DNA from: Bugulina stolonifera
Lineage: Eukaryota; Bryozoa; Gymnolaemata; Cheilostomatida; Bugulidae
Reading direction: 5' to 3'
Assembly (NCBI GenBank): GCA_935421135.1
Contig: OW285187.1
Span: 26,164,429 to 26,228,428 of the forward strand
Length of the DNA: 64,000 nt
Part shown: piece by piece, positions 174 to 45,669 of the stretch
Position numbering within the stretch: position 1 is the stretch's first letter
Layout of the letters: each line of letters opens with the position of its first letter
Program-made: the position numbers and the translations under genes
Notes under the pieces: generated by a model
The model's database searches: none
Told to the model about the DNA's origin: nothing
What the model saw: the letters and a program-made list of their open reading frames with translations, nothing else

Positions 174-998
174 TGAAGATCTGTACTTCAGTTATGGTAA
201 TAACTCCTACAATGATAAGTCTGGACACACCCACTTGGGGGGTGTTTGTGATATAGTAAATGGTCTAGCTACCTCCATTGCTAAGGCGTCTCAATACAAG
301 ATAGAGCAGACTGTAAATATAGCTGCCCACGAGCTTGCTCATAAGTAAGTGTAAAGCTCCATTGATACTCTACATGTATATTATAATGCTCTTAACTTGT
401 ATTGTCGTCAGCGAACATAGCCTCAGAGCAGTTGATGATTCAACTGCTATGGTAGGTTCTAATATCCTGTAGGTTATCACATGTTTTGTTCAAGCAAAAA
501 TTTGCTGGTCAACAATTTAGGTCTGTTAATAATTGTGGTGGTAATGATTACATCACATGACCAAATACTGTACAATGATTCCTGTAGCCATAATATACAT
601 GTATGATGATGTATTTGTTCATATCTATTTGTGTAATACTGTATACTACAAAAATTAATGTATGTACCGTGTTATAAATAATGTGTAAAATATATGCTTT
701 CAGCTTTTATTACTCAGGAACTGTAACTGGTCATGTATATTAGGTGTATTCGGAAATTGCACGAGCAAGGATTATTTTTGCCTGAGTGCTCACACTGCCC
801 TCGGTTATTAAATCATAGCCTCATATGAACTAGTACAATATATTAATACGCCTATTATAGCTTGGGAGCTTACGATGACTATGGACATGAATGCGGGGAG
901 TATATGGGATGGATTATGCAACCGTATAGTGGCTATCCATCTGCTCAACACTTTTACTTCTCCTGCTGTAGTCAAAACGATATCTACAACACATTGTC
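174..998 (+). CDS. Metalloprotease catalytic domain exons, ADAMTS/reprolysin (M12B) type
   Basis: Three exons (174-344, 421-451, 861-998) encode the second half of a zinc metalloprotease domain. Visible are a GGVC segment, the helix ending in HELAH (328-342), the continuation NLRAVDD when the acceptor at 420 is used, a [14 protein letters not shown] stretch whose IMQP is the Met-turn (Met at 915-917), and the FSCCSQNDI ending typical of adamalysins. In the family the zinc motif is HExxHNxGxxHD. Here Arg stands for Gly and Asp for the third His, so activity is doubtful or the site is unusual. An alternative acceptor at 411 would read HELAHNEHS, which fits the family less well. Exon 421-451 ends in phase 0 while exon 861 needs phase 2, so a micro-exon, another splice site or a sequence error is unresolved. 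The prodomain would be upstream of the window. Confidence 0.75.
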
Positions 999-3900
999 GT
1001 AAGTTACACTTTTGTTCCATTAAATTCAAACATGTTTTATATAATGTCAAAAATACTACATATAGGAAACACAAAGATTTATCATGAGAGATGAAAGGTG
1101 TCAATTTTTTACTTAATTTAATCAGCCAAAGGGCACAACCGTTTGTTCACAAATAAAAGCAGGCGCGCACAAAGGTAATGAATGAACATGATTGGTCAGA
1201 GAAAAAAGCACCTCACAGTAAACACAGCCAATGTGAACAGCATGTGCGGCTGTCGATGAAGACTCCTATGGGCGTGTCTACTGATTCTGTTTTAGCTGCA
1301 CCGTCTTACCACTGAATTTGACATACATTGTATATATGACATGCACAGTATATATGACATATATGACATACATTTGTACAAGGTATATATGGCATCATGA
1401 CATATATAACATACAAGGTGTATATGACATATAGGACATATAGGACATATATGACATGTAGGACATATATGACATTATATGCATGTACATGTATTATGTT
1501 TCTGTTAATTGTAGGGATGGGCGTCAATGCATACACACAGAACACTATACGGATCGGATACCGGAGCTGGTGAACGGACAGGCTGGGGAGAAATATAACC
1601 CCGACTATCTATGTCAAGGATATTCACCTGGATATGTCGCTTGTACTGAAGATGAATACAGGAGCTATGCCATTGGTATATGTGAAGAATTGCTTTGCAA
1701 GGAATCGAATAACAGCGAATGTCACTATGCAGGGTACATACCACCACATGGTAAGTAGTTATGTTTGTTTGTCTGCCAAGAATGTAGCCTGCATATAATT
1801 TTTTATCAGAACACAGTGTACCAGTTAGCACATAATTATATAACATAGTACAATTTACGGTACATGCGGATTCTACAGTAAACAACTTTTCTTGAAATTA
1901 CATAGTTTATCATTTAAAATTTACTGCTGGATTAAACCTTTCCCAAGCGCTGCTAAAAGATTTTTAAACTTTTTGGAAACGATTATTCATTTTCAGCTCC
2001 TCTGTAGTCTACTTTAGTGACCTTTTTATTTACAGGAATAAAGTATTAGCTATTCAGATACACTCATGATTAGCTGTATTATTAGATACGCTTTCAATGT
2101 CCATGATCTCTATTTCAAACTTGTAACTGCCTAACAAATATTATTGTCCAGCAGCCAATAGGATCGCATGATACGTGTTGCTGTGAATCTAGCGACCAAT
2201 AGGATTGTACGATACATGTTACTGTGACTATTTACTGCAGGTGCTTGACGTCCACAATAGTTCATGTATGACTAATTGCTTGCGTGTAGACTAAATGCTC
2301 TTTTCTGCCAGTATTGTATTTTTAGCTACAAATGTCTCACTTGCAATTGCTTTCAACTATGTAGCAGTTAGACTAATAGAATAATAATTCTTCACATAGG
2401 AACTCCTTGTGGTGATAATAAATGGTGTATGGAAGCAAAATGTGTCAGCAGAACCGCTAATCAAACAGAATATCGCCTGGAGCAGCCCACCTGTACACTG
2501 GAGAAGACAAACTGTAGCAGCAATCAGTATCAGTGCACAACAGGGGTTTTACGGTGTGTATAGGTCGACTAGTGCTTGCCGCTAAGCATTCAACTACATG
2601 TAGTTGCTTAGCAGCATGTACACATAATATGTAAACCTACCTGTATTACTGCATGTACATGACACACTATGCATGCAGGCTTATGCATTGACTAGTATCA
2701 GCTTTTTCACAATGTTTTTGCACACGTTACTAAGCAACGTTATTGTACACATGCATACTCGGCCAAATCTGTCATTAGTAGAAGAACTAATAATTATCAG
2801 TCATGTGACTTGAGGTCAAGGTCATCGGTAGCATCATTGCTCTACACTTGTAATGAGAGGTTTATTCTAACAGTTTCAATATATTATTTCCAACATTGTA
2901 ACAATTTGGAAACTCATTAGCTCTTTTCTTACAGCGTATCAGTTTTGCAGGAGGAATCAACTCCCATTTTTTCTAGCATTTAGAAAACCCATGAAAAGTT
3001 TGGCTTGGGAATAAAGCGCTATTGTTATTAAAAATCAAAAAAAATTTAATAAATTAAAATTTTTTATTGTCTTTGTAAATTTTTGTAATAGATATTTTTA
3101 TTAGTAGGTGTAGAAAAACACCATAGCTTTGCTAGTAAGATTGAAAGCCTCCTACTACTGTACTTTGTTTGAATCACCATCAGGCAATCTGTACTCCAGA
3201 ATGCCAATGGTGCTTATATGTATGTCTGTAAAGGAAGTATTATTAGTTTTGTATTGTTGTTTTATTGGTAGCTCCGATATTGCACTGAATGAATCATGTT
3301 ACGAGAAGTGGCGGCGGTGTGACGGAGAAGCCGATTGCCAAGACGGATCTGATGAGCACTACTGTAAATGCAATGAATGGATGTTCTCTTGTGACCCTGA
3401 GGTTACAAAGAATGGTAGTACTTGCATTGAATTCTATCATATCTGTGATGGGGAAGAGCAATGTCCTAATGGGGCCGATGAAGCCAACTGTACCTGTGCT
3501 GAAGATCAACACAGGTATTAATACACCCATCGTGTTACTCCTCACTCTATTTCTACTTGATTATGTTTTCATTTTGACTCTGTCAAACAGATGTAGGTGA
3601 AATATTAACCTTCCCGATGACGTTATGTTTTGTAGGTGTAATATTGGCCCAGTCTACTATAACCCACACAATTGTTATTCTAATTGGTCACGATGTGATA
3701 GATATCATGATTGCTATGATGGAAGTGATGAAGCTGGGTGCGGTAAGTGTATTATTATATTACGTAATTTTATATATAAGTATTCTATTTTATTGTATGT
3801 AATGTATTGTCATATTATAGTGTATAATGTATATTATAGATCTTTTTATATTGTATGTATTGTATTAACAAAATATACATATACACGTACATGTTATGCG

Positions 3901-6900
3901 GTACATGTACATGTAGAATATAACTTATATACACTACATACTTGAATGCTGTTTCTTTGTTTCTATTCTTATTGTAAATGGTGAGACAGTAAACATTATT
4001 GTATGAGATATAGTAACATAAACCTAGGTATGATTTCTTCATAATATGTGTATTTCATGTACTGGATATACATGTAGTAGTCAGATGTAAATAGATCTAA
4101 CCTCCAATTTGTACCCGAAGTTTGATTGCAAATGGGCAAAATATCATTTACTCATTTCGCTGAAATTTTAAAATAATTAGGTTTTGAATAAGATATAAGG
4201 GTATGGATAGTTGGCTGGATAAGAAAGACCACCTTCTTACCCAACCAGTGATAGTCATTTACTATGTTCCAGCTGACTGTTACAGCTCATGTGTCTCTCT
4301 ATGCAGGCTGTAGTGAACATAGCAGTTTCGAATGTGAAGTTTCCAATGGTATCTACAACACTACTCAAACAATCTGCCTGTATAATGAGCAGATTTGTGA
4401 TGGATATCCAAACTGTATGAATGGAGAGGACGAATCCAACTGCACATGTGACGAGTCAGTACAAAATTTGAAGTTTTTTACACGTTAGCATGACTTATAA
4501 AAAGCACTATTGATATAAAACTGACTCCATATTTAATAAAGTCGCCATTGTTAATTAAGTCGCACACTTATCAAAGAAGTGTGAGTTTTCCAAGGTTTAT
4601 TCACATAATGCGCTAACTTCTAGCGTAATGTGGTGTTGAGGCTGTACTACTTTGCTACATGTAGTACTACACTACAGCGCATGCACTACACTATGGCTTA
4701 CTGAATTGTACAATGGCACACTGTACTGCGTGTACTGCATGTACTGCGTGTACTGCGTGTGCTGCGTGTACTGCATGTACTGCACTACATACACTGCACT
4801 ACATACACTGCACTACATTCACTGTACTGGTTTAGTCTGGGCTCACCGAGTCTTTCCTACAGCTTCAACTAAACATGTAGGCCAGCTGTAGTCATACCCA
4901 TAGTAATGAAGTCACACATGCGCTGCATTCTATCTTGTGTTTGTATTTTTAGTGATGGTAGGTTTGGCTGTGGGAATACGACGCAATGTATAGACATCAA
5001 CTATGTGTGTGACGGTTATCCAGACTGCTGGGATAACTCAGACGAGTACGATTGTCCTTGTTATTATGGGTGAGTAACACCGCATATACATATATATGTA
5101 CATATATATATGTATATACATGTACATACATGTATAGGTGTACATGTATATACATATATATGTACATATATATGTATATACATGTACATACATATATATA
5201 TGTACATGTATGTACATATATATGTACATATATATCAAAAATCAATATAGTGGAGTTAATATCACATTCCTCTTACAAGTAGTAGAAGTTTGAAGGCCTT
5301 CGTATTGTGAGTTGACCAGCTTTGCTTCGAACTGGTACTAACTGATGGCACATAGGAGACTTGTTCTATCTCCTACATCACATTACTTGGTGTTTAATTT
5401 ATAACACCTTAATTCAACTGAGAGACATGAGCTATGTATATAAAGATAATGTCTTAGTAATTCATACTATCCTGCATTGGATTGCAGATTGTCGATTAGA
5501 ATCCAGGTGCTGGTACATGATTTACTTGTGTGACTCACAAGTAACCTAGCAACTCTCTCCTATAGTAGGTGCTATAGAAAGCAAAAGCTAATATAAGAGC
5601 CTAATATTTTAAGTGGACTGCCATGTTTTCTCTCAATACCCATATAGGCTATGTAGAATAAATAAGCATTTTTCGGGAGATTTTGGTAAAATGAGATATT
5701 TTTTGTGGTTGGGGCAATTGGTTTGGGCGTTACTCAAAAATAAAGAATGAAGATTGCTTCTGCTTTTCTGCACGTAATAACTTTACTTAACAAAGAATGA
5801 ACAGTATTTTTAGGCCTTGGTATATTTTTCATTGTTTTAACAACATTCCTGCATTATCAAAGCCAGATTTCAAATTAACAATAATATAATGCAATGTTGT
5901 TTTTAGCTGGATTGTATAACAAAAGTTGACTTCGTAATTAAAATTGTTTGTCCGGGAAATGACTCTTTTGTCAAATTTAACAATGAATTATTAACCAAGC
6001 GAGTATAGGAATTCCATGCTTCAATTAATGTAGTTAAAAGAAATCAGAAGGTTTTAAAGGGGTTATGCCACGTGTTTTAAGGTAGCATTAAGGAATAGAT
6101 AGTGTTAGGCCCAGGATGGATATCGACTATTTAAACTATTTGAGATGTGCTGTTGATAAATAACACTAAATTGGGCCCAAAATCACACTCAAGAATTTTT
6201 TATAACGTGAACACACGAACAAGAGACTAGACTTTACATATGATATAGACCTACAAGAAATTCAAATGTGCATGATATTATTACTAACTTGCATTTTATG
6301 TACTATTTGCAGAAAGGTGTCATGTCCAGATAACTCCAACTGCATTTATCCAAGTTGGTATTGTGATGGTGACAAAGACTGTGCTGATGGAAGTGATGAG
6401 ATTGGTTGTGCCTGCCAGAAGAATGGACTGTTTGATTGTTCTACAAATAGTTCAGGAACCTCAAACAGCTCATTGAACAATTCCACATGCATTCATTATG
6501 AACATGTGTGTGATAATAGAACAGATTGTCCCAATGGCAGAGATGAGATGTCATGTAACCAAGACTGCCCAGCTAATTATACCAAGTAAGTAGCATACAG
6601 GTACCTGACAAATTAATGAAACCAGCCATTGAGTGCTGTGTTATAGTAGCCTATAGCTTCAAATTGAAGTTTCAAGTTATGGAGATAAAACCATCTTTAT
6701 TCAAAATATATGTAGGCTACTACATGTATATGTCCCAGTTAGGTAATCTATGACAGAAGACTCATTTTATATCAAATGGAATAAAGAAAATAAACATACA
6801 TGAACTGCATGATTATTCAATTGCAGGTACCTCACTGAAATGTTAATCCTGTGCGGTTGTCCATTATAATAGTATTCATTTAACTTACCCATAATGCCCT

Positions 6901-9900
6901 GTGAGGGTTTATATCCTCTCCTAATAGTATTGCTTCCTTGTCAACTTGAAGTGAACAGAGAGAAGACAACCCTGTAGGTTTCTAACTTTCAAAGCATTAT
7001 CATTAAGGGCTCAATCCCCTTTGTCACTATTTTCTTAAAACTTACAGAATGGCAGGTGTTGATCTGGAAGTCATATAATACGATCCAGTATTATTTCTTA
7101 CAACAATTTTGTCATATTTTGATAATTATTTGTACTATTCAGTTTGTTTGTTAACTAACATCACTTTATTTAGGTGTAGCAGTGGAGTGTCCTATCACTA
7201 CTCTGGACTCTTTGATGATGTCTCTACGAATCCTCGATGCCTTCCCAATTTCCTTCAATGCAATGGAAAGTGGGACTGTACTGATGGAAGTGATGAAGCT
7301 AACTGCACCTGTAGGTGGGTTGATATAGCCTGCCTACCAATGGAATACCAGTTTTTATTATCAAATTTGTAATTAAAATTCCGCAAATAATGTATGTTAT
7401 GTAGCAATTACATGTGTATAATTACCTCCTTTTTACAGCGTATACGTATATTGTATAATAGGCCACTACCAGGCTAGTGCCATATTTTTATACTAGTTGG
7501 ACCAGGATGTGCTAATAAGAATAAAGTTGAATTATTTATATGAGTATGTTGATATAGGTAAAGAGTTTTATAACATGAAGTAGTACTAGACACGTTTTTG
7601 ATTTTATTCCTTATATTTTTTCGATATTAGTTCTAGTACCATCATCAGAGGAAATAATTTTTTATTCTTTGGATTACATTAAAACTAAAATTGAAATATA
7701 AGGAATAGGCTAAAAAATGAGGTACTATTTGGTTACTAGAGTTGCTACGCCCCGCATTTCCATTCACTGATATTTAACACTAATGTAAACTAAATGTATA
7801 TGATATTATGTTGAAGTATTTCAGGTTTATATTATGGATATTTTAGGAGCGACCAGTTTAAGTGTTTGAGTGGTGAATGTATACCTTGGAATTGGATCTG
7901 TGATGGTGGTACAGATTGTAATGATGGTTCAGATGAGATGGGGTGTCCCTGTGGTCATAATGAGTACAGATGTGCCAACTCTAGTAAATGTATACCTCAC
8001 TCCTACTTCTGTGACAACTACACTGACTGTGACTATGGGGAGGACGAATCCAAACACACGTGTAACGCTACATGTGCAGAGGATGAGTTCAGGTACTCCA
8101 ACTATTTCTGGCACCTTAGTGAATATGAATTGGGGTTTAGCCCTTTTGTAATGAATGGAATTGTGGGAACAAGTGCTTGACTGCACACAAATGAATTGTC
8201 TTCCAAGAAAAGTATTAAGACATAAGGATTTTTGGTACGGTGTGACTAACCATTTATACTGGGTTTTAAAAAGCTGGCTATCAAGGAAAATGAATAGCTC
8301 AGATACATATCATGTAGATCGCACTCTTGGATGAATATGTCAGATATGAGTAATCATACAGATGTATTTACTGTGAGAAAATCTGTTTTCTATTCTTTTG
8401 GGTTTTTTAGACTTGCCTAAAAAACTTTGACAGGTAAATTAAAAAGACAGATTGAAAATCTGCAAGTAATGTGATAATTTACCCCATTAGACAGATACTA
8501 GTATTATTCCTGTCATCAATGTACATTTATATTTCAGATGTTTTTCTGGTCTAGCCAGGCATGGCACTACTAACTGTGTATATCGAGGCACAACATGCAA
8601 CGGCTACTCTGACTGCTATGACCACAGTGATGAGACTTTGACTGAATGCCATGGTAAATATAAGTTACAGTAACCTTCTAACCCAATCATATAGAATAAT
8701 TATTATGTATTGCAAAATGTCCAACATTTAGCTGTTGATTGCAAATGCAAGCAACCTTACTTGATGAGTTTTTCCCGCTACATCTCCATGTCTAAGTGCT
8801 GTTGTCCAGCTGAATATGTTGGCTATGTTCTTCAGTTTTGATTCAGTGTGGCAGCCTTCACCAGGCCATTTCGTTCTCTATATAGCTATTTAGTGACTTC
8901 ATGCTCTAAGTTTGAGGTGCAGGCTAAAATGTATTTAAGCCTTCTTACCTTTAGGGTGTCCTGACATATGCGTATCTTTATGGTTTTAATCAAATTAAAA
9001 ATATATTGATAAGTTTAGCATTTTGAGTAACAACAGTTTTGCCTGCACTATGTTGAATGTCATAAGGGGATAAAATTATTGAAATCTACGTTGATTCAAA
9101 ATTCACGATAAATTCATCAAAGGAAAGTATAAAATGCTATCAATTCAATTCTTGGCAAAAAAGTACATGTCCAGGTGTACGCGTATAGTACAGCATGTGG
9201 GTTATTGTTGGTACTTATCATTGCTTTTTGTAGATAAGTGTGCCAATGAAGCACCACCAGGGTCTCCCAGCGTCTACTGCCTTGCCCGTCATAGCTCTGA
9301 CAGTTATTGCATCTACAGCGGAAGCGGTTACGAGTGCAACTGGTACCAAGATTGTCTTTATGGTGAGGACGAGAGCTGGATGTTCAACTGTTCCACTCCT
9401 CAGTCCAACTGCTCACTGTAAGCATTGTGTAACATTAATTACTTCTCCACATTATTATGAGGTTGATAGAATGAGAGACCAGCTATTGATATAAAACTGA
9501 CTCCATATTTAATAAAGTCGCCATTGTTAATTAAGTCGCACACTTATCAAAGAAGTGTGAGTTTTCCAAGGTTTATTCACATAATGCGCTAACTTCTAGC
9601 GTAATGTGGTGTTGAGGCTGTACTACTTTGCTACATGTAGTACTACACTACAGCGCATGCACTACACTATGGCTTACTGAATTGTACAATGGCACACTGT
9701 ACTGCGTGTACTGCATGTACTGCGTGTACTGCGTGTGCTGCGTGTACTGCATGTACTGCACTACATACACTGCACTACATACGCTGCACTACATTCACTG
9801 TACTGGTTTAGTCTGGGCTCACCGAGTCTTTCCTACAGCTTCAACTAAACATGTAGGCCAGCTGTAGTCATACCCATAGTAATGAAGTCACACATGCGCT

Positions 9901-27900: not shown

Positions 27901-30900
27901 TTACAATTCAAGCAAGAACTGAGAGAGTTGTGTTGGACAATGGAAGTAAGTGACTTAGGATCGGTATGGGGTAATCTCGTATTCTGTACAAATCATATCA
28001 TTGTAGAAAGACTAGCCTGTGCCTCTCTCCAACTCATTTTATTCAAATTTGATACCAAATTTAATACTAAGTACTTTTCTGATAGTTTCTGTCTAAATTA
28101 CTTAGATCTGGGTCAAGCCACCTACTTTTCTGCTATATGCGTGAAGAGCGACCAGCTACCCAAAGTACAAGTTCAGATCAACAAAGCAGCTGCCGATGAT
28201 GTCATAGGGGTAGAGAATCAGCTACAGATGATCATTGACGGAACTGAGAAAGACATCTCTCTGATAGAGCAAGATAGCAACACCACACAGACACTAAGTG
28301 GTGTTGATACAGGAATCCTATTCAAAAGATCTAATGCTAGTTTGACGGTCTTCTTTTCTTCCGGAGTATCTGTAAACGTATCAGCCATCAACGTAAGTAA
28401 TTTGGTACTTACAATTTTCTTTGAAGTAAAGCACATGATTTTATTGAATATTTTATCTTACTATTCTGAAGGTCACTTCTCATATACCTGTACTAAATAT
28501 GTAGTGAATGCGTCATGGAACTGTATGTCTGTAGAAAATGCTCACAATTACCCTGGGACTACCAGCTAAGTTTATGGGAAAGACGATAGGTTTGACGGGA
28601 AAGTATGATGGTGACAAAGAGAATGACCTGTGGAAGAAGGACCTTACTGGATACATTCCTGCTGATTCCACTGAGTCGGACATCTTTGATTGGGCACAAA
28701 CATGTAAGTTATTGCTGTATTTACTCACCAATGTATAAGCTGACGTGGTATAGGTAAATACTCATATACAGTATGCTGAGATATACTCAATTACTGTATC
28801 ACATCCATAAATAATGTATATATATTATATCTACATGTATGATCACATCCAGGGTTGACACAAATACACAAAGCTCACTATTCTTCACTTGGACTAATAT
28901 CGGCTTTAGAAGTTAACTATTTGGGCTACTACATATTATCCTCTAGTTCTTACCATGTTTATTGATTAGCAGTGTTGGAGTGTATTGGTGTGCTAATTTC
29001 TAAAAAACTTTGCTTTTTCATTAAGATTTATCCTCTTTTACTAACTCAAACTATGCGCAGCTTACCTGAGTCACTAGATGTTACTTAACTTGACTACATG
29101 ATATGCATACTATATTTCAGTTGCTGTATCTGAGGATGATTCTATCATGTACTACACTGAAGATAGCACTGAGTGGAGCACCTACAATGAGAATTCCTTT
29201 ATACCTATATTTACCGATGATGTCGATAGCTGGGTTTGGTCGCCAGCGGAGCTGGAGGGTCAGGCATACGAGGCATGTGGGAATGATACGTCCTGTTTGT
29301 ATGATGTCTATGTCACTGGAAATATTGATGTTGGGGTTAGCTCCAAACAGACAGCTGATGCAAGTGTAGCTGTTAACACTGCTTTACGTGAGTTTAACCA
29401 CTACCATGCTATGAGCATGGTTCATCCTTATATAATTAATTAATTTTTGCTTACAACTGCCAGTTTATTTAAAGTCATGATTATGGTCAACTAACTAATA
29501 ACATTTTTATTAATTTAAACTTAAATCTTAAAGAGAAACTCTACAGATTTTAAAGGTTCTACACATATTTATAAACGTTGATGCATTGATTTCTACCACC
29601 TTTTTTCAAATAATAGAATTGAAGTAATAGTACTAGAAACTGAACAGGATCTTGCATCGACTTCACTTTATAATTTACAGATAACTTTGCTCCAAAGATA
29701 ACTGGTTCAAGTACGCTCTACATTACTGTGGGGGAAGAGTTTGAGTATGCAGTCAGTGTAAATGACTCTAATGGTGATGAAGTTACAGTGTCCACTAATA
29801 TTGACACTAGCCAATCACAGGCCGACCATATTGTGACCTTGTCTGCTACCCTGACTGCTGCTACCAACTTTGACGGGTTCAAGCTTACGGTTACGGCTAA
29901 GGTGAGGGCTAACTCCAGATGGAATATTATCTTACGCAATGAACTGTCATGTTGGAGATATGTGCATTCAGTTTTTACGAAACGATTTGAGTATCTCCTC
30001 CACTATTTCATGATTTAAATTTACTTATTATAGTGTGTTCAAGTAGTACACAAGGTTTAACTGCCAAATACTGAAATAAGTTTCACACCCGCAACTTACT
30101 TAGCTATTAAAATGTGCTGGTATGTACTCGCTGAGTTGAACACTATTCATGCTCCTGTTCCTCTTTAATCAGTGAGGTTGTACATGTGTTCCTCTTTAAA
30201 CAGCGACATTGTGCATGTTCAACTATTTATACAGGATCCCAGTGGAGCAGCAGCCACTAAAACTCCTCTAGCCATGATATGTAACTGTGCTAATGGTGGC
30301 ACATGTGTGGAACTATCTTCTGAAGAGCAGTCTTACGTTCAGTCTGAGTGAGTAATCAGTCAACATCTTCTTTAATCAGTTTGTAGCTGATATATAGCTG
30401 TTATCGCTGACTTTTACCAAGTCGTAGAGTTATCGGAGAGATTGTTAAAATATGTGACTTTTCTGATTGGGTTTAGATAAAGGATGGTTGTTACACAGTA
30501 GTCCATACATTTTTAAACTTATATCCAAAACCATGTAGCAATACTGGATAAATCTTTCTGGTTTTTATTACAGATCTGTGGTTCTGGAGTGTATCTGTCC
30601 TACTGGATATACTGGTTCTTTCTGTGATGCAGATCTGGATGCATGTTCTTTAGTAGCATCTCCATGTTATCCATCTGTACTGTGTGTAGATAATCCTGCA
30701 CCTGCTGATCATACTGGTTATACGTGAGTTATCTCCCCTTCTAAATATGAACTTGAGGTGATTCATGTGCACAATACATGTAAATGTGGTCGCTGTTATT
30801 CAGGTTAGTAGTAATAGCTCTGAAAGCGGTGAAGTTGTGTTCTCTTGCCCACACTGAATCGCATGACACTGTAATTGGTTACTAATTCAAATACTTGCAA

Positions 30901-33900
30901 ATGTAAGACAAGAATCGTAAAATTGTAATTCATCAGTAAATGATTACTTTTTAAAACTTTTGAGTTGTTCTGTGGTTTTCTATAACCGACAGCAAATATA
31001 GTTGTGTACAGTACTTGTACCTTATTTGTTTTCAATATTACCAAGTGATGTAAGCAGCCATTTGTTTTTTTCTAATGGCCTCCACAGTGATCAATTTTAT
31101 GTTAGAATATTGCTGGCTGATTGTAGAATAAAACACACTTACTTATGCAGGTTTCGACAGTACCTGAAAAATTCACGTACCTATACACTGTACAAGCATA
31201 GCTGGTGCATCTCTATACCAACATCAAAACGCATGTAATAACCGCTTCAGTTGTACTGGTAGTGAGAAAGTCCATTTATATTTCTGTATAGATGTGGGGA
31301 TTGCCCACCTGGATACACAGGAGATGGAAAGGCTTGTACAGATGTAGATGAATGTGAAGATGAATCAAAATGTGATAGCATCTGTATAAATTCCCCTGGA
31401 TCCTATGTGTGTGCCTGCAACAGTGGCTATGAGCTTAACGCTGATGGCTCTACATGTGACGGTAATTGTATAATGTTGTGTTATTGTATAAAGGTTTGAT
31501 ATTATGTAGCCAATGATAAATAGATGCTCGTATTTGGTGGTTCAAAGATTTAGTTTAATATACGACAAAATGTTTGTTTATCAAAGGAGGTGTTATACAT
31601 ATACATGTACGCTATATTTATAAAATTGTTATTGTATTAGAGCAACCTGAGACATGAGGCAGATGTTGCCCACATGCATATGTGCATATTGTGTAATATA
31701 ATTTATTTTCTTCTACATTATATTCAGTGCCATTATTTATTGCAAGCTTAAACCAATTCAAAAATTCCATTCTATCATGTCGAGAATTTTGACACAGTAC
31801 TCGTAAATTATTTTTTCATCCTCAGACATTGGTTTTGTTCACCAGCTTGAATCAATTTCAGACATTTCTTTATTTTACAGATGTTGATGAATGCCTGATA
31901 GACCCTTGTCATCACGACTGTACAAACACAGCTGGAAGCTTTGTCTGTAGCTGTAATGATGGATTCACTCTAAATGATAATAACATTGACTGTGAACGTA
32001 AGTAACTATCTAATCTAGTGGGATAGATGTATGAATATATTTAAAGTAAAATGTTGGTTGTTTCTTATCGATCACCAAGGAATCTGCAAGGGCATTGTTA
32101 TTATTAACTGAACGAATGTGAATTTATATGTACATGTACATATAGATACATTATTGGCACTATGAAGTTGCACAAGCCTCCTTTTATTTATCTTCTTCTT
32201 GTTTTGATCAAAGCATAAATGATGACAACTCCTGAGAATGCAATATGCCAGGAATATCTTCACGTAGTGCAGCAGGCTTGCATACATTACATCTCTTTAG
32301 ATACTTTCTACTACTGTACATGTATATTTTTGTACTAATGTAATGTTGTAGCATCCAACCCATGTGACATACCAAGCCCATGTGACGATACTAACGGTTT
32401 CTGTAACAACGTCGACGGTGTGGAGATGTGCTCTTGTAAGAAGGGTTACACTCTAAATGCAGACGGATCAACATGTGACGAGGTAGATGAGTGTAAGCTG
32501 GGAACTGACGCGTGTGAACACAACTGTGTGAATACAGTAGGAGGTTATTCATGTGAGTGCAATGATGGCTATACTTTGGCCTCCGATGGAATGGCTTGCA
32601 CAGGTGAGATTTCTACTGCTGATTATGGTCAAGTTTTGTATGTAGTGTAAGAGGATATTTGTATTGCTGACAGCTAGCTACAGTGTACATACATGTATTG
32701 CTTTGTTGTTATACATAAATCTAGTCACAGAAATAGTGATGGTGTTTCCCGAGGGCCTGACCTCTAAAATAATCATCTCAAATGATGCTTATGTTGAATT
32801 TGCTTGTTCAGACAGCTAATTTTCTATTGGATGACCTGATTTTAGACATCTAGGTCTTAGAGAATACATCTAACTGTTTACTAGCTTCTGCATAATAATG
32901 ATCTAATATAGTTTTATTAGATCTATAGGTTAATAAAATGCTCTTGTATGCTATTATACAACTGCGTATTTGGGCTGATCATGTAGTTTAGTTTCATTCT
33001 CAACAATGTCATCTATTACAGTCTATTGTAATCTATTCTACTGTAGATGTCAATGAGTGTGTACAGGATTCTTTTGACTGCCACGTCTCACAGACATGCT
33101 CTAACACTGACGGTGGATATGAATGTGTATGTAACACTGGACAAGTATTCAAAGATGGCCAATGTCGAGGTATGGGTTATAGCTGGAAGTCAAAATGGAT
33201 TTTTCTACTACTGTTATACTCGTAGTTAGGGTATACCTACTCTCATATAGACACCATTTAGAATATATACAATGTGGATTTATATTGCATTTTCTTTTAA
33301 TTTGAGGCTATAATAAAGTAGTTACCCTACTTCACCATATTATACTTAACATGCTTTGCTGTCACAGACTATTATATACATAGTTAGCCACTGTTCCATA
33401 TATATATGTGCCGTTATTTTAGTTGTGGTGGTTACCGACCCTGTAGAGGACGTGACAGAAGAACCTGTTTCTGAGGCTAAGGAAAACTCTGTCAAGTTTT
33501 CTTTGGAAGGAATGAAGATATCTGAGGTAACTACTAGCCACATTTGATCTTACTAGTTATACTAGATCTGCCAGCTTCTCTTCATATTCATTTAATTTCA
33601 TCCATTTTTCCATAATCAATGATTTGATAATTGAACTCAAAATTATGGAAAGGCAGTGCTGTAAGATGCAATACATTATAATTACAGGAATTATGAGTCA
33701 TATTATAATAGTTCTTTTAGAATATATGTATGAGTGAAACATAATTAGCTTTGCTATATACATTAAATATTGCAGTTAATGTCCACTGTTTTACAGTAGC
33801 ACCATTTACATTTCTACATTGGTATCGGAATAGCGATTGTCACTGCATACCTTCAGTCTGCCATATGTGTGTAATACAGATATGAATTATGAATGTTATA

Positions 33901-36900
33901 ATATTTACAGTACACGGTGGAGAAAGAGATCAACCTGTTCACCATCTTAGCCAGTCAGCTGACAAACATGTGTTCCTCCACTTCTTGTGACTATGAAACT
34001 GTAGAATCTAAGGCTAATAGGAGACGGTATGCTAGTAAACCCTTCCCTATGTGAAGTAGTATGAGATGCAGTTTGGGATTTTATTCCTGATGTTTCCATA
34101 CCAGTCTTGGTGTCGTTATGGCAATGATACCAGGACTGGTGTCGGCACACCTGAAATTAAAATCAAAAAATGTACCTAGTACTATTTCATATCATAAAAT
34201 TTCTTACACTCACCGACATCTTCAAATCTTCTCCATGTGTTACTCCAACTGATTGCTAAATATGCGGTAATTACTGCATAACACTGTATTGTAAAAATTA
34301 CATGTAGCTACAGGTATGTCTGACCTATAATACCTCTAGTACATACATGTAGGTCTGATTCTTAATCTTCTGGTGAAGTCTTCCTGGCCTGCAATTTTTC
34401 TATCTATATGAATAGTATAATATATCAGGTATGTGAACCTCCAGCCGGGTTTATGGTAAGACAGAATGCAAGGGGATGAAGTTTATACTAAACGTAATCA
34501 GATGAACTAGATCTGTAGCTGTCCAGGTTCTATGAGGATACACATATATACATGTATTACAGGAAGAGGGCAGCATCTATAACATTCTATAAGGAGTACT
34601 TTACCAGACTCCCTGGATACCCTCAGTATGATGATAATGGTGACCTCCAGCTGGCTATCTACACTTTGGTACCGGGTACTGGGGTTCTGAGCAGCGACCA
34701 GTTGCTGGAAGCTACACAGAAATCGTCTTCCTCCATAGGTTCCACCCTTGGTATGAAAATCCTAATATTCTATCTATTTATAATATATATTATTTTATTC
34801 AAAATTACATTGGTAATGCAATATAATATTTTTTGCATTAGGCCTACTACAGAGCTAGGCTATACAGCTTGTACCATTTTCGTGTTTTGTAGGGATACCT
34901 TCTCACACTCAGTGAGGTTTTGGTAATAATATACACTTGGGGTTTCACTGGCAGCAATAGTAAGGCTGCATAAGTGCAAATGATATTCGTTTGTATATTT
35001 TGACAGCTGAATTAATAAACAAATTTTAGCTAGAAATCTACCAATGTAGAATTGAAAGCCTCCACACTTACCTAAAATAACTATAGTATGAAGTAACTCA
35101 GCTGTGACACCAAATTTCATAACCGCAAACTTTTGATATGTAAATGCTGCTATTGGATCTCTATTTGGGATCTACTTATATGTAATGAATGTGTATGTTG
35201 TAGGCTACACAGTGGTAAATGTTGATGTTGTGTACATTCCAACCACCACTGCTGCCACCACTGAAGCTGCACAGGAACAAACTACCATCGGAGACACAAC
35301 TTCTAGAAACCAGTCTGTTATCTACATAGCTATTGGAGTATCTGCTGGTGTGGTGCTTCTTGCTGTAATTCTAGCTGTCGTCGTCATCAAAACCACTAAA
35401 TCCAAGTAAGTAGACAAGTACATGATTTGATGTTTAGAATGAATACTTAGAAATGCTAGTTGTATGACTTCTCATTTATAGTAGCACGACTTCTTGTATC
35501 ATGTCTTCTGTTTTATAGTGGCTGAACGTTTCCTTTATGGTAGCATGTCTTCTCCTGTGTAGTAAGACAGAACCAGAAGTCAAACTATGATACCGGACCA
35601 TATCTACTATTCATTCTAGGCAATACTATTTTAGGCAAAGCACCAAAACTGTTTATCCTACGACTGACCCAGAATATTCCAGAAAGTTCTCCAAGGCCGA
35701 CTCCTTAGGCCCCATCATAAAAGCTGATGCAGAAAGAGGTGTTGATGAGCCTCCATTGGTGGTCTACCCTGCTGCTGCCACCAGTAAGGCTGCTACTACT
35801 GTAGAAGCACCTGCTGAAGCTGACACATCAGATAGCAGACCTCCCTCAGCTAGTAAACATGTGATGGGACATAATAGGGTATCCACTCCACCCAGAGACT
35901 CAGTTACTCCAGTGGATGCAGAAGGTTAGTATTGCATGAAAGACTAATAAATCTTCATGAAACTTATACATGCAACGCAAAACACTTTTTTTCATGTATT
36001 TGGATGGAAATTGGGTTTCCGAAAGTGCAGCCGTGTGACATAGTTTATATCCACTGGATATGCCTCTGTTACATGTGCATCAACTGCTGTGTGACAAGTG
36101 ATAGAAATAGCTGGTGCACGTGGTCCTAATACTCCAAACATATATAATAGTGAATTACATATGTATATATTTCAGAACAAACAATAATGTTGATTGTTTC
36201 TTCCACAAATTTTAGATTTTGCGTTTTCAATTGATGGTAGGTTTGCAGGAAATATCCGTTGATACACTCACCATTATATAACTTTATACGTATCATGCCG
36301 CTGCACAGTAGGATAGAGCATTATTATCTTCTTGCCTTTGCACCTTTCTTTACGCAAAATTTGTTTTATATATTTTAGTTTAATAAGCAACACAAATTTT
36401 TAATATGGTAAGTATTATGTTGTGCACATTGTGATTTCTAATTTTGGTGTATAAAAGTTGTGGATTTAACAGAATTTTAGATTGTTGTGCCATTGTGGCT
36501 TGTAGTTTAACATGTGTATAAATATTCATATCCCCTTAGTGTGATGTAATTCCTTGAATTTGACAGTCTCCTTTTATAAAGTGATAATCCTCTAGTTGTT
36601 ACCCTGCTTCTTACTAACCCAACTCCAGCAGTTAGTAAAAGATATAATTGTATAATTTTAATACTGCTACCTGAGGGTATGCTAATAGTACGTACCTGTT
36701 AATACACTACTAGTACTTACCTGTTGATATGCTACTAGTATTTGCCTGTGAATATGCTACTAGTACTTACCTGTGAATATGCTACTTTTACTTACCTGTG
36801 AATACACTACTATTACTTACCCATAGATATGCTACTAGTACTTAGGCTACTTGTGTTACTTGTGTTACTTGTGTATGTATATGCTACTTACCTGTGTATA

Positions 36901-37576
36901 TGCTACTAGTATTTACCTCTGAATATGCTACTAGTACTTACCTGTGAATATGCTATTAGTACCTACCTGTAGATATGCTACCAATATACTTACTTGTAGT
37001 TATGCCAGTAGTATTTACCTGTAGATACACTACTAGTACTTAACTGTCGATATGCTACTAGTATTTACCTGTGAATATGCTACTAGTACTTATTTGTGAA
37101 ATTACATTAGTTAGTTTTGCTGCTTGGTTATTATGTAGTATGTTTTATTATATTAAATCATAGTACCATAAATTTGATTTTAGGGTATATACATGTATAT
37201 ATAATATAAGATTAGCGTTGGTGACATGTTTCTGTTGTGAGCAATAAAGAAGTAAAAACTTGTCTGCTTTCCATCAGTGCTTACTTTACTCATAAAGACC
37301 CTGTCAACTGTATGAGCTCTAGGTTCTCGAATCTGTTTTACTCTCAGTTTATATTAGGAAATTAAACTATTATCTGTAATGTTGGCAGGTGGCTCCGAAG
37401 ATTTAGAGCAGGAATTACTCTCCAACAGCACAAACAATCATAAGTTCAACATCCCAATCTTAGCGCTTCCAGATGACGACGAAGATGTATTTGATAATAA
37501 GGGGACAAGGATATGTGTCATACCACCGACACCACTTCCTCCTAACTATGACCCTTATGACAACTATTATCTCTAG
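174..37576 (+). CDS. Gene A: giant ADAMTS-like / LDLa-array / mucin-4-like type I membrane protein (5' partial)
   Basis: Exons read by eye with GT-AG borders and matching phases: 174-344, 421-451, 861-998, 1515-1750, 2400-2553, 3272-3514, 3636-3742, 4307-4454, 4953-5069, 6313-6585, 7174-7314, 7847-8092, 8538-8653, 9234-9417, 9929-10045, 11253-11525, 12104-12244, 12756-13001, 13447-13562, 14141-14324, 14780-14883, 15460-15586, 16106-16284, 16768-16935, 17536-17563, 18070-18200, 18739-18865, 19398-19558, 19949-20155, 20782-21477, 22585-22802, 23109-23376, 23761-23927, 25136-25229, 25504-25662, 26185-26356, 26811-27000, 27366-27495, 27802-27945, 28106-28392, 28535-28703, 29121-29387, 29681-29901, 30235-30347, 30574-30723, 31292-31461, 31881-31997, 32352-32603, 33047-33169, 33423-33526, 33911-34026, 34563-34750, 35204-35405, 35620-35924, 37389-37576 (TAG). 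About 3270 codons are in the window. The start, signal peptide and any prodomain lie upstream. Only the 451-to-861 junction fails to keep frame. It could still be two transcripts; cDNA would decide. Confidence 0.82.
1322..1482. repeat. GACATATA-type low-complexity repeat in gene A intron
   Basis: Irregular repeats of ATATGACAT and related units just upstream of the exon at 1515. Not coding. Confidence 0.7.
1515..2553 (+). CDS. ADAMTS-type disintegrin-like / Cys-rich domain exons
   Basis: Exons 1515-1750 and 2400-2553 continue directly from the protease domain in phase. The spacing of cysteines, a CEELLC segment and above all the [16 protein letters not shown] stretch match the Cys-rich region that follows the catalytic domain in ADAMTS proteases (DGTxCGxxKWCxxGxCV in the family). 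In ADAMTS proteins this part helps substrate recognition outside the cell. The usual thrombospondin type-1 repeat does not follow. The second exon instead runs into the first half of an LDLa module (CSSNQYQC), so the protease unit is joined straight to the LDLa array. The 1751-2399 intron shows no gene. Confidence 0.78.
3272..4454 (+). CDS. Proximal LDLa modules 1-4 of gene A
   Basis: Exons 3272-3514, 3636-3742 and 4307-4454 complete module 1 (begun at the end of exon 2400-2553) and encode modules 2 to 4. Each shows the LDLa pattern of about six cysteines with the calcium-cage end CDGxxxCxDGSDExxC (variants [24 protein letters not shown]). LDLa modules bind calcium and serve as ligand-binding units in LDL-receptor-family and many other extracellular proteins; the ligand here is unknown. 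All three exons are phase-compatible. Insertions of Asn/Thr-rich sequence between the first cysteines give several possible N-glycosylation sites. Introns 2554-3271 and 3743-4306 hold no recognisable gene. Confidence 0.85.
4688..4822. repeat. TGTACTGC / ACTGCACTACAT repeats, copy 1
   Basis: Imperfect tandem units of 10 bp (TGTACTGCGTG) followed by 12-bp units (ACTGCACTACAT). Part of the duplicated segment, so repeated at 9664-9798. It gives rise to a Cys/Tyr-rich open frame without meaning. Confidence 0.8.
4953..9417 (+). CDS. LDLa modules 5-12 of gene A (first copy of the duplicated six-exon unit)
   Basis: Exons 4953-5069, 6313-6585, 7174-7314, 7847-8092, 8538-8653 and 9234-9417 total 1077 nt (359 codons) and encode eight LDLa modules. 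Most keep the acidic calcium cage ([24 protein letters not shown]); the last two ([21 protein letters not shown]) are more divergent and the last has a long insert. Entry and exit of the unit are both in phase 2, so adding or losing one copy keeps the reading frame. The module in 6313-6585 carries an Asn/Ser-rich insert with several NxS/T sites. Introns are 400-1250 bp; the one at 5070-6312 contains the palindromic TA-rich array. Confidence 0.87.
5084..5236. repeat. Palindromic TATACATATATATGTA array, copy 1
   Basis: Alternating purine-pyrimidine, self-complementary TA/CA/TG units directly after the donor of exon 4953-5069. It can form cruciforms or hairpins. The second copy is about 35 bp shorter. 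Confidence 0.85.
9664..9798. repeat. TGTACTGC / ACTGCACTACAT repeats, copy 2
   Basis: Second copy of the intronic repeat at 4688-4822, almost unchanged. Confidence 0.8.
9929..14324 (+). CDS. LDLa modules 13-20 of gene A (second copy of the duplicated unit)
   Basis: Exons 9929-10045, 11253-11525, 12104-12244, 12756-13001, 13447-13562 and 14141-14324 have the same six lengths (117, 273, 141, 246, 116, 184) as the first copy and remain open in frame with intact splice sites. Amino-acid changes from copy 1 include NG to DG and M to V in the second exon, DD to GN, R to Q and A to T in the third, N to D, S to F and T to K in the fourth, G to S and Y to H in the fifth, and R to S in the sixth. The acceptor of the third exon has changed from TAG to AAG. 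Both copies look functional; nothing marks either as a pseudo-copy. Confidence 0.86.
10060..10176. repeat. Palindromic TATACATATATATGTA array, copy 2
   Basis: Counterpart of 5084-5236 in the second duplication unit, contracted and rearranged, showing how fast this array changes. Confidence 0.85.
14780..20155 (+). CDS. Distal LDLa and degenerate LDLa modules 21-28 of gene A
   Basis: Exons 14780-14883, 15460-15586, 16106-16284, 16768-16935, a 28-nt micro-exon 17536-17563, 18070-18200, 18739-18865, 19398-19558 and 19949-20155. Clear LDLa modules are in 15460-15586 ([16 protein letters not shown]), 16768-16935 (NGADEANC), 18070-18200 and 18739-18865 ([16 protein letters not shown]). Exons 16106-16284 and 19398-19558 encode a longer, degenerate type with CYNKT and CADxSDIxxC but without the full calcium cage. 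Exons 21-24 and 26-29 of the gene have the same series of phases and module types, so this region is itself an old four-exon duplication. The remaining introns, including 16936-17535 with a short tandem repeat, show no other gene. Confidence 0.8.
15090..15347. repeat. 129-bp direct tandem duplication in gene A intron
   Basis: The 129 bp from 15090 are repeated from 15219 with only a few base changes (for example AACGTAGC versus AACATAGC). Fully intronic, between exons 14780-14883 and 15460-15586. Confidence 0.9.
15967..16059. repeat. 14-bp tandem repeat (TGTCCGTATCTACA)
   Basis: About seven copies of a 14-bp unit with C/T variation at one position, upstream of the exon at 16106. Confidence 0.88.
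16939..17113. repeat. About 31-bp repeat (TTTCCATACCCATGCTGTAG)
   Basis: Roughly five imperfect units after the donor of exon 16768-16935. Confidence 0.75.
20782..21477 (+). CDS. Mucin-like Thr-rich exon of gene A
   Basis: A single 696-nt exon, in phase 1 at both ends, encodes about 232 residues dominated by Thr, with Ser, Ala, Pro and Ile. Such sequence is expected to be densely O-glycosylated and extended, as in the mucin segments that precede NIDO-AMOP-VWD in MUC4. Near its 5' end are NATS and NITT sequons. The codons are strongly biased to ACT/ACC, and short tandem units based on ACTCCGACTACTACC occur near 21375-21418, so the segment probably grew from a microsatellite. Open frames on the minus strand here are by-products of that composition. 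Confidence 0.85.
22585..25662 (+). CDS. NIDO domain exons of gene A
   Basis: Exons 22585-22802, 23109-23376, 23761-23927, 25136-25229 and 25504-25662. The opening [13 protein letters not shown], the IIAPFW segment, [31 protein letters not shown] and a final [12 protein letters not shown] follow the NIDO pattern (LYPFG-D, PFW-D, W-NV-Y, NTFQ, Y-IQW, GF-GD) known from nidogen, MUC4, alpha-tectorin and Mesh. NIDO is an extracellular domain commonly found upstream of AMOP and VWD. All junctions are in frame. Gene B has the same domain at 49078-51189, with the last two exons fused into one. The 21478-22584 intron (1.1 kb) shows nothing recognisable. Confidence 0.84.
22990..23096. repeat. About 27-bp repeat (AGTTGCTATAGTTACCATAC)
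   Basis: About four imperfect units ending just before the acceptor of exon 23109-23376. Confidence 0.75.
25679..25845. repeat. About 37-bp repeat (AGTGACCTAGTTTATTAGTA)
   Basis: Four to five units following the donor of exon 25504-25662; intronic. Confidence 0.8.
25958..26050 (+). repeat. Possible tRNA-like SINE head in gene A intron
   Basis: TGGTAGTACAG at 25961 resembles a pol III A box and GGGTTCAAGCC at 26018-26028 a B box, about 55 bp apart. No proper cloverleaf was drawn, so a decayed SINE rather than a tRNA gene. Confidence 0.3.
26185..27495 (+). CDS. AMOP domain exons of gene A
   Basis: Exons 26185-26356, 26811-27000 and 27366-27495. The order CMDFV...[15 protein letters not shown], then CF...LRQTCCY and finally YQHCCVES...[13 protein letters not shown] fits AMOP, the cysteine-rich extracellular adhesion-associated domain of MUC4 and SUSD2-type proteins, which pairs CPCT/QQCCY and CCxxSxxCxxYxxxRP motifs. 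It lies between NIDO and VWD exactly as in MUC4. Gene B has matching exons at 51883-53557. The intron 26357-26810 contains a hexanucleotide array that reads open in several frames but is not coding. Confidence 0.8.
26644..26712. repeat. ATGTCT hexanucleotide microsatellite
   Basis: About eleven copies of ATGTCT followed by looser ATGTGT/ATCTAC units to about 26790, just upstream of the AMOP exon 26811-27000. It reads open in several frames but encodes only simple sequence. Confidence 0.92.
27802..29387 (+). CDS. VWD domain and post-VWD region of gene A, with GDPH motif
   Basis: Exons 27802-27945, 28106-28392, 28535-28703 and 29121-29387. The first begins [19 protein letters not shown], a VWD start; GDPH is at 27813-27824. 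In MUC2, MUC5AC, MUC4 and RGM proteins the GDPH Asp-Pro bond is known to break autocatalytically, so self-cleavage is a reasonable prediction here. The third exon holds the [14 protein letters not shown] segment typical of the end of a VWD fold. The fourth ([13 protein letters not shown]...[16 protein letters not shown]) matches the region after VWD in MUC4/SUSD2-type proteins. Gene B exons 53903-55648 align throughout. Confidence 0.84.
29681..33169 (+). CDS. Beta-sandwich-like segment and EGF array of gene A
   Basis: Exon 29681-29901 encodes an Ig- or cadherin-like strand pattern ([19 protein letters not shown]). Then exons 30235-30347, 30574-30723, 31292-31461, 31881-31997, 32352-32603 and 33047-33169 encode about seven EGF-like modules. 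Several are of the calcium-binding type (DVDEC, DEVDEC, DVNEC openings, CxNxxGSYxCxC centres, [11 protein letters not shown] ends). These form a rod-like stalk between VWD and the membrane-proximal module. Six exons here have exactly the same length as their gene B partners (221, 113, 150, 170, 252 nt, and the preceding 267). Introns of 300-1150 bp show only AT-rich sequence. Confidence 0.84.
33423..34750 (+). CDS. SEA/HD-like membrane-proximal module with furin-type site, gene A
   Basis: Exons 33423-33526, 33911-34026 and 34563-34750 (phases 1-0-2-1) encode an acidic leader, a strand [14 protein letters not shown], a helix with two cysteines, then RRRKR followed by AAS and [23 protein letters not shown]. 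The basic motif is split by the intron: RR at the end of the second exon, RKR made by the splice to the third. R-x-K/R-R is the recognised form for furin-type proprotein convertases. A furin cut inside a SEA-like fold just outside the membrane is known for the Notch heterodimerisation domain; that parallel is an inference. Similar modules occur twice in gene B. Confidence 0.7.
35204..37576 (+). CDS. Stalk, transmembrane helix and PPxY cytoplasmic tail of gene A
   Basis: Exon 35204-35405 encodes a short Thr-rich stalk and one transmembrane helix (about 35317-35388, [20 protein letters not shown]) followed by Lys-rich stop-transfer residues. Exon 35620-35924 encodes a Ser/Thr/Ala-rich tail. The last exon, 37389-37576, has an acidic patch ([10 protein letters not shown]) and ends [17 protein letters not shown] before the TAG stop. 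PPNY at 37538-37549 matches the PPxY ligand of WW domains such as those of Nedd4-type ligases, and several tyrosines could be phosphorylated. Acceptor 35619 was chosen; a nearby AG at 35634 would shorten the tail. The intron 35925-37388 holds a long tandem repeat. Confidence 0.82.
36676..37100. repeat. About 25-bp tandem repeat (ACTTACCTGTGAATATGCTA) in last intron of gene A
   Basis: About fifteen imperfect units. Most contain ACTTACCT, the complement of the splice donor AGGTAAGT. Confidence 0.85.
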
Positions 37577-44902: not shown

Positions 44903-45669
44903 ATGGTCTATAAGAGACTGTTCCTTTGTATAGCACTAATCTTATGTCAGCAGGGATTATTCATAGCTGCCCGTAAGTTCCGAATCTTGTGAATAAATAG
45001 GCCAATGATATATTTAAGAATTATATGTCATACAAAATTCGAAGTAGTATATGGATGTACACTGATATTCTCTTATTGTTACTTTGAATAAATATTTTTT
45101 TATTTGAAGTGTGCATCAAAATTGAGAGATTTTAGTATATTATAGCAGTATTTCCTAGGTTTTTGATCAGTCATCGGTGCTTAGTTAATGATCAAATTAT
45201 GGTATTATTTAAGGCAGAAGGATGTTGGCATCTTATACTCATGTCTATATGTTTACATGTCTACATGTCTATGTGTCTACATGTCTAGGTGTCTATGTAT
45301 CTACATATTATCTACTCATGTCTACATGTCTACATGTCTATGTGTCTACATGTCTAGGTATCTATGTATCTACATATCTACTCATGTCTACATGTCTACA
45401 TGTTTACATGCCTGCATGTGTTTATATCTACATGTCTAGGTAAAGTAAGCCTATGGAACATGTGCATATAAATTAGCTATTAGCTGTTAACCCCTTAAAC
45501 ATGTGGATATTTTTCTGAAAACAGGCGCTGGTAACTTTGACTGTTAATGATGTTATATCATAGAATAGAAAATAATTTTAAATTTACATAACTGTATATT
45601 ACGCAGAGGCAGATTTGTCATCAACACCAACCAGTGAGTCGCCTGAGGAAGTCGTAGCCACTACTACAG
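44903..45669 (+). CDS. Signal peptide and acidic Ser/Thr leader of gene B
   Basis: The ATG at 44903 opens [20 protein letters not shown], a short basic start followed by a hydrophobic core, which is a clear secretory signal peptide of about 23 residues. Stop codons precede it in frame in the likely 5' UTR, which supports this start. The next exon, 45607-45669, encodes a Ser/Thr/Glu-rich linker. A possible 5' UTR acceptor lies at about 44813, and a stretch ending in CAG before GTAAAT at 43505 could be an upstream non-coding exon; that is a guess. Confidence 0.8.

Follow-up and report, generated by a model that had tools for sequence, protein, structure and literature searches.

A predicted gene of Bugulina stolonifera joins an ADAMTS-like head, a long LDLa array and a MUC4-like membrane protein in one reading frame

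For the membrane mucin MUC4, a putative autocatalytic cleavage at a GDPH motif has been reported that splits the protein into a large outer part and a part tethered to the membrane (PMC8660890). MUC4-like mucins that share GDPH, C8-3_MUC4 and EGF modules, most of them also with NIDO and VWD, are found in bryozoans (P0001–P0005, P0016 and gene 2, the neighbor of the gene described here) and in corals (P0006, P0007), with neither a protease nor LDLa among the Pfam families listed (for gene 2, within the first 1308 aa). Predicted proteins that combine LDLa, NIDO and C8-3_MUC4 are already in the databases from starfish and amphioxus (P0018–P0020, P0025–P0030), with no reprolysin among the Pfam families listed. 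In the LDL receptor family, a YWTD beta-propeller stands beside the LDLa and EGF modules, and ADAMTS proteases are secreted enzymes with a metalloprotease domain, an ADAMTS-type Cys-rich domain and TSP1 repeats. The gene described here (gene 1) shares the LDLa-NIDO-C8-3_MUC4 combination with the starfish and amphioxus proteins and adds a reprolysin-like head. Our literature searches on bryozoan, ADAMTS, LDLa and MUC4/NIDO themes found no description of this protein or of its domain order, in line with a preliminary description of the locus, whose author knew of no described protein with this order.

The window, i.e., the whole stretch of B. stolonifera DNA that was analyzed, is 64,000 nucleotides long (C1:26164429-26228428) and belongs to a genome of 235 Mb in 27 contigs. 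Hand curation of the exons, with 10 kb of upstream sequence (L010) added, gave a model of 62 exons that runs from window position -3977 (L010 6023) to 37576, has its stop codon at 37574-37576 and encodes 3728 aa (Table 1). All 61 introns are GT-AG, the phases agree at all junctions and there are no internal stops, which bears out the single reading frame through protease, LDLa array and mucin that had been proposed from the window. The proposed count of about 55 exons rises to 62 once the upstream part is added, and the single phase disagreement that had been noted, at an unnamed junction, leaves no conflict when 174-344 is joined to 861-998. The start at position 174 did not hold, as 174-344 is the ninth exon of a gene whose first exon lies about 4 kb farther upstream. 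The predicted order is a signal-like N-terminus, prodomain, RKKR, M12B metalloprotease, ADAMTS-type Cys-rich domain and LDLa array, followed by the Ser/Thr exon, NIDO, AMOP-like region, VWD with GDPH, C8-3_MUC4, EGFs, RRKR, TM and tail.

Table 1. Predicted features of gene 1 and its neighbor; positions are those of the window unless L010 is named
Feature	Position	Strand	Description
Exons 1-8	L010 6023-9753 (upstream of window)		Signal-like N-terminus, prodomain, RKKR, first part of catalytic domain
Exon 9	174..344	+	M12B catalytic domain part up to HELAH; Reprolysin 6.4e-10 (Pfam), P0015 alignment
Exon 10	861..998	+	Remainder of zinc motif and Met-turn; Asp codon 874-876 at third zinc-ligand position
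Exon 11	1515..1750	+	End of catalytic domain and most of ADAMTS_CR_2 (2.8e-11, Pfam)
Exon 12	2400..2553	+	End of ADAMTS-type Cys-rich domain; LDLa module 1 begins at 2513; LDLa match 684-730
LDLa array	2513..20155	+	Exons 12-36; about 26 recognizable modules, 23 Pfam stretches
Tandem duplication copy 1	4507..9489	+	About 5 kb, six LDLa exons; 95.4% identical to copy 2 (BLAST)
Tandem duplication copy 2	9483..14396	+	BLAST
Exon 37, Ser/Thr-rich	20782..21477	+	232 aa, 137 Ser/Thr; phase 1-1, 696 nt; not in P0015
NIDO domain region, exons 38-43	22585..26356	+	NIDO 5.6e-22 (Pfam)
AMOP-like region, exons 43-45	26185..27495	+	Profile comparison 95.8%; no Pfam match
VWD domain, exons 46-48	27802..28703	+	VWD 2.4e-12 (Pfam); GDPH 27813-27824
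C8-3_MUC4 domain, exon 49	29121..29387	+	1.8e-10 (Pfam)
EGF and Ca-binding EGF modules, exons 51-56	30235..33169	+	EGF_CA 5.3e-31 (Pfam)
Juxtamembrane SEA-like region, exons 57-59	33423..34750	+	Furin-type RRKR, residue 3439; no Pfam SEA match
TM helix, exon 60	35204..35405	+	Residues 3546-3564, hydropathy
Cytoplasmic tail, exons 61-62	35635..37576	+	PPxY present; of 11 sequences compared, only P0015 has similar last residues
Gene 2, separate MUC4-like paralog	44903..61449	+	Signal-like start 44903 read by eye; chaining model from 45318

The codon table for exon chaining was derived from 22 stretches of the same gene, so the comparison of its scores with those of the controls is biased toward the gene. 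Under narrow splice thresholds (run 1), a gene cost of -6 divided the region into three, with breaks at -338/-260 and 18884/19459, and a cost of -12 gave one gene that included unrelated upstream exons. Under wider thresholds (run 2), costs of -6 and -10 gave one gene of 66 exons from -3801 to 37576 (scores 782 and 774), and costs of -14 and -20 extended the same gene by seven small exons to 39928 (scores 769 and 763). The controls stayed far lower, with 14.1–16.1 for three Markov-1 shuffles and 73.5 for the reverse strand. At a cost of -14, 51 of the 62 curated exons were recovered identically and 11 differed, mostly at one edge; among these, P0015, a protein of the bryozoan Watersipora subatra, backs exon 10 (861-998) and exon 41 (25136-25229). 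An exon picked by chaining at 412-451 was rejected, as its inclusion brings a stop into 861-998 and the alignment with P0015 is uninterrupted when it is left out. The small chained exons 3184-3219, 23622-23636 and 36216-36236 were dropped as unsupported; the frame is kept either way.

The preliminary description had suggested looking for the same order in the proteomes of other early-branching animals. A search with the full-length protein (21 matches among 4437 candidates) found one colinear protein, the uncharacterized 3338-aa W. subatra protein P0015, which argues against separate genes for the protease, LDLa and NIDO parts. P0015 aligns with the whole of gene 1 save for its own first residues and the Ser/Thr exon, with identities of 25% in the prodomain, 44% in the catalytic domain, 38% in the Cys-rich domain, 41% in LDLa, 38% in the NIDO region, 37% in the AMOP-like region, 67% in VWD, 59% in the C8-3/cadherin-like region, 68% in EGF, 56% in the SEA-like region and 43% in the TM plus tail. 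The order prodomain, M12B protease, Cys-rich domain, LDLa, NIDO, VWD with GDPH, C8-3_MUC4, EGF, RRKR, TM and tail is common to both proteins, as is RKKR. Pfam finds three reprolysin models, 20 LDLa stretches, NIDO, C8-3_MUC4 and EGF within P0015; VWD and ADAMTS_CR_2, neither of which matches at E <= 1, are both seen by alignment. P0015 differs from gene 1 in its canonical zinc motif, in its 20 rather than 23 Pfam LDLa stretches and in lacking the Ser/Thr exon and PPxY. Its residues 1-65 (~65 aa), read by eye, look like reverse-transcriptase sequence and are probably a wrong first exon; its annotation thus has at least one probable error, and the 5' end of the model is uncertain. RNA-seq is reported to be part of the genome project for W. 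subatra, whose Ensembl annotation relied mostly on aligned transcripts (PMC12902671); the name of P0015 comes from NCBI.

The link between protease and LDLa array lies within exon 12, where the end of the Cys-rich domain is followed by NCSSNQYQC of LDLa module 1, and in this genome the LDLa-mucin and mucin-NIDO joins rest on phase. At these joins, the locus could instead hold two adjacent genes, a secreted protease-LDLa protein reaching to ~20220 and a MUC4-like mucin that starts near the mucin/NIDO exon. Stand-alone MUC4-like paralogs with signal-like starts of their own do exist (gene 2 and Watersipora P0002), a read-through of exon 36 reaches a stop at 20218-20220, and the narrow-threshold chaining split the region, though at 18884/19459. 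A mildly hydrophobic ATG occurs at 20014 inside exon 36, and a weak signal-like ATG exon at 21557-21668 fits in phase into the NIDO exon and could start a shorter product; with 7 such candidates over 45 introns in three phases, chance alone would give ~0.1 in an intron of this size and phase. On the other hand, P0015 has only 15 residues at the position of the Ser/Thr exon and runs from LDLa into NIDO by this short linker, the start of the mucin exon has no hydrophobic signal (hydropathy maximum 0.52), all phases agree, and chaining under wide thresholds returns one gene; we consider two genes very unlikely. The near-identical 5-kb tandem copy inside the LDLa array could also point to an artefact of assembly or annotation, such as a misjoin or collapsed haplotypes, but the two copies differ at 26 of 1077 bases in their six exon pairs (2.4%; 13 synonymous and 12 non-synonymous among 353 codons) and at 103 of 3816 non-exonic bases (2.7%). 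Furthermore, the sequence used (L010 and window 1-40500) contains no N, the assembly is reported to derive from 52-fold HiFi reads with a contig N50 of 12.6 Mb (PMC10213821), and the same domain order recurs in a second species, all of which leave an artefact extremely improbable. One predicted B. stolonifera gene that joins the protease-like head, the LDLa array and the MUC4-like membrane part is confirmed as a continuous frame, and the proposal of such a gene is supported, with P0015 as its colinear counterpart.

The head was examined against the features of ADAMTS proteases. A Reprolysin match above the Pfam cut-off (6.4e-10) indicates that the M12B catalytic domain is present, ADAMTS_CR_2 (2.8e-11) covers the disintegrin-like/Cys-rich part, and the prodomain ends in a furin-type RKKR at residue 336, one of two RxKR sites in the protein (the other is at residue 3439). 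The best PDB sequence matches to the head are ADAMTS13 and ADAMTS1 (7.6e-9 and 8.7e-5), with ADAMTS_CR_2 in common. None of the three pieces searched with Pfam, which comprise all but the Ser/Thr exon, matched TSP_1 at E <= 1, and the protein is therefore not a strict ADAMTS; moreover, the TM helix predicted by hydropathy at residues 3546-3564 would anchor it in the membrane, unlike the secreted ADAMTS proteases. The term ADAMTS-like, used in the preliminary description, can accordingly be kept for the catalytic domain, the Cys-rich domain and the prodomain with its furin site, but not for TSP1, secretion or the zinc motif. In B. stolonifera this motif, read across the 344-861 exon junction, is HELAHNLGAYD (HELAHNLGAYDD), with H516 at 328-330, E517 at 331-333 and H520 at 340-342 in exon 9, and Asp replaces the third His of HExxHxxGxxHD. 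The Watersipora motif is canonical (HELGHNLGSEHD; aligned stretch HELGHNLGSEHDNSDECEPDAGWIM). Given Asp at the third zinc-ligand position, a working protease is not evident in B. stolonifera.

A genome search for a second copy of the head gave 10 matches, three of them outside the locus; the best of these by E-value has 28% identity (C4:8474590), beside short stretches of 39% and 41%, so no close paralog of the head was found in the genome. Among nine reprolysin-like loci (L017, L053-L060), the third-ligand residue is His in four and Asn in two, and three have no open-frame HExxH match. The two loci with Asn (L058 and L059, C2:19.07 Mb) read HELGHQLGLPN, another altered zinc site, and loss of the third ligand is thus not unique to the head of gene 1. 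A run of ADAMTS_CR_2 places was also observed on one strand at C1:29505395-29706093, perhaps a tandem gene cluster.

Since its third zinc ligand is Asp, the B. stolonifera head is probably weak or inactive as a protease and may act mainly as a binding module, and catalysis by the Watersipora head is plausible. Alternatively, the B. stolonifera head could be active with Asp as its third zinc ligand and could cut ligands captured by the LDLa modules or neighboring mucin chains. The Glu and Gly of the motif and the Met of the Met-turn are retained, and the catalytic domain is 44% identical to that of P0015; against activity, L058 and L059 have Asn at the same position. We know of no M12B protease with Asp as third zinc ligand, and the Asp-zincins have other folds than this head. 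HExxHxxGxxD is, for its part, the Asp-zincin motif, and the snapalysins keep a Met about ten residues past the third ligand, but the same source describes Asp-zincins as having no Met-turn (PMC3890501). Taken together, an active Asp head seems unlikely, and we favor a B. stolonifera head that binds rather than cuts.

The LDLa array is long, as the preliminary description had stated, though its count of 28 modules was somewhat high. Pfam recognizes 23 stretches (Ldl_recept_a 3.4e-133), and a home-made LDLa model gave 27 matches at i-E <= 0.01, one of which (residues 557-583) lies inside the protease, leaving ~26 modules. In exons 16106-16935 and 19398-20155, degenerate LDLa-like modules (CSSGAVLG...) form a unit of two parts that is repeated, the second also being recognizable in P0015. 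The YWTD beta-propeller family gave no match at E <= 1 in the three Pfam pieces without the Ser/Thr exon, which sets gene 1 apart from the LDL receptor family. When the genome was scanned for LDLa (150 of 358 candidates scored), four places fell in this array, and the rest of C1 26.18-26.52 Mb had none. At C3:17480171-17543831, an LDLa exon recurs at a period of ~974 bases in dozens of consecutive copies, forming a very long tandem LDLa array. On the minus strand, NIDO places at C1:13863617-13923941 are preceded by LDLa places ~40 kb upstream and possibly mark another LDLa-NIDO gene.

The C-terminal part carries the features of MUC4-like proteins: NIDO, VWD with GDPH (residue 2700), C8-3_MUC4 and EGF were found by Pfam and a TM by hydropathy. 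The NIDO, VWD, EGF and TM parts of the proposed order hold, but AMOP and SEA gave no match at E <= 1 in the three Pfam pieces without the Ser/Thr exon; by profile comparison, the region before GDPH scored 95.8% against the AMOP-bearing P0010/P0011 and 99.8% against the coral mucin-like P0006/P0007. Membrane mucins of this type have a large, O-glycosylated Ser/Thr-rich region; the Ser/Thr-rich region of gene 1, with 232 aa, is short for a mucin. Its exon can be skipped in frame (phase 1-1, 696 nt), and, as P0015 has no such exon, the architecture does not always include the mucin stretch. The PPxY noted earlier is present in the tail of gene 1 but not in that of P0015; the comparison of 11 tails (Table 1) includes some incomplete models. 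Short tandem repeats occur in introns at 36668-37100 and 57440-57820 of the window.

The relatives of gene 1 were sought with several queries. With the C-terminal half as query, the top protein matches come from the bryozoans Watersipora subatra and Bugula neritina, so the sequence is that of a cheilostome bryozoan and not of an early-branching animal, as had been supposed. Among the 35 proteins listed for the C-terminal-half and full-length queries, reprolysin families are recorded for one (P0015) and LDLa for 10. A 1997-aa N-terminal query, in a search that reached proteins of ~1100-3500 aa sharing words with it, matched nothing at E <= 0.001 among 1206 candidates. The shorter C-terminal-half tree did not resolve gene 1, gene 2, P0015 and P0001; in the longer tree, the partner of P0015 is P0001, which is unfused (97/97), and that of gene 1 is gene 2 (80/86). 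As a point against the favored reading, a grouping of gene 1 with P0015 was not recovered by these trees; in the longer one it appears in 2% of 200 bootstrap trees, and the corresponding constraint was not rejected (p-AU 0.102). By eye, P0001 and P0015 have an identical EGF stretch, which may reflect gene conversion.

Downstream of gene 1, the window contains the separate MUC4-like gene 2. In the first 1308 of its 1641 aa, Pfam finds NIDO (9.9e-6), VWD (4.3e-11), C8-3_MUC4 (7.5e-11) and EGFs, with no reprolysin or LDLa at E <= 1. Gene 2 also has GDPH, a TM was seen by eye, and 47493-47705, near the N-terminus, resembles the juxtamembrane SEA-like region. Genome-wide, at least 33 NIDO places were listed, a lower bound that omits the NIDO exons of this window; 18 of them lie downstream of the window at C1:26249248-26508676, which is probably a family of MUC4-like genes.

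Based on these features, we consider it moderately likely that gene 1 encodes a type I MUC4-like protein of ~3700 aa that is processed and presents its head and array, the head being weak or inactive here and canonical in Watersipora. The signal peptide and the prodomain would be removed, the latter at RKKR. By analogy with the cleavage reported for MUC4, the chain may then be cut at GDPH in VWD, a second cut could fall next to the membrane at RRKR, and the fragments would remain together at the cell surface. A VWD-EGF-TM stalk would thus carry an outer subunit made up of the protease-like head, the LDLa array and NIDO. Ca-binding LDLa modules may capture ligands, which the head could bind, process or trim; for B. 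stolonifera, binding with weak or no catalysis is favored, and the Watersipora motif is canonical. Such a protein may serve in adhesion, barrier or defense, as the preliminary description had suggested. A bolder reading, a membrane-tethered mucin that captures and cuts with its own metalloprotease and giant LDLa array, with a His-His-Asp site in one lineage that may cut, is in our view rather doubtful.

What is new here is the predicted protease-like head on a MUC4-like scaffold, which among the matches listed occurs only in the two bryozoans. B. stolonifera belongs to the Bugulidae and W. subatra to the Watersiporidae, and an architecture common to two bryozoans of different families is unlikely to be an isolated accident. 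Poly(A) RNA-seq of B. stolonifera is on deposit (ERR10123683; PMC10213821). A protease head would have been added to a surface-mucin family known for barrier, adhesion and signaling roles. With a canonical zinc site in W. subatra and an altered one in B. stolonifera, both within the same architecture, the pair lends itself to a natural comparison.
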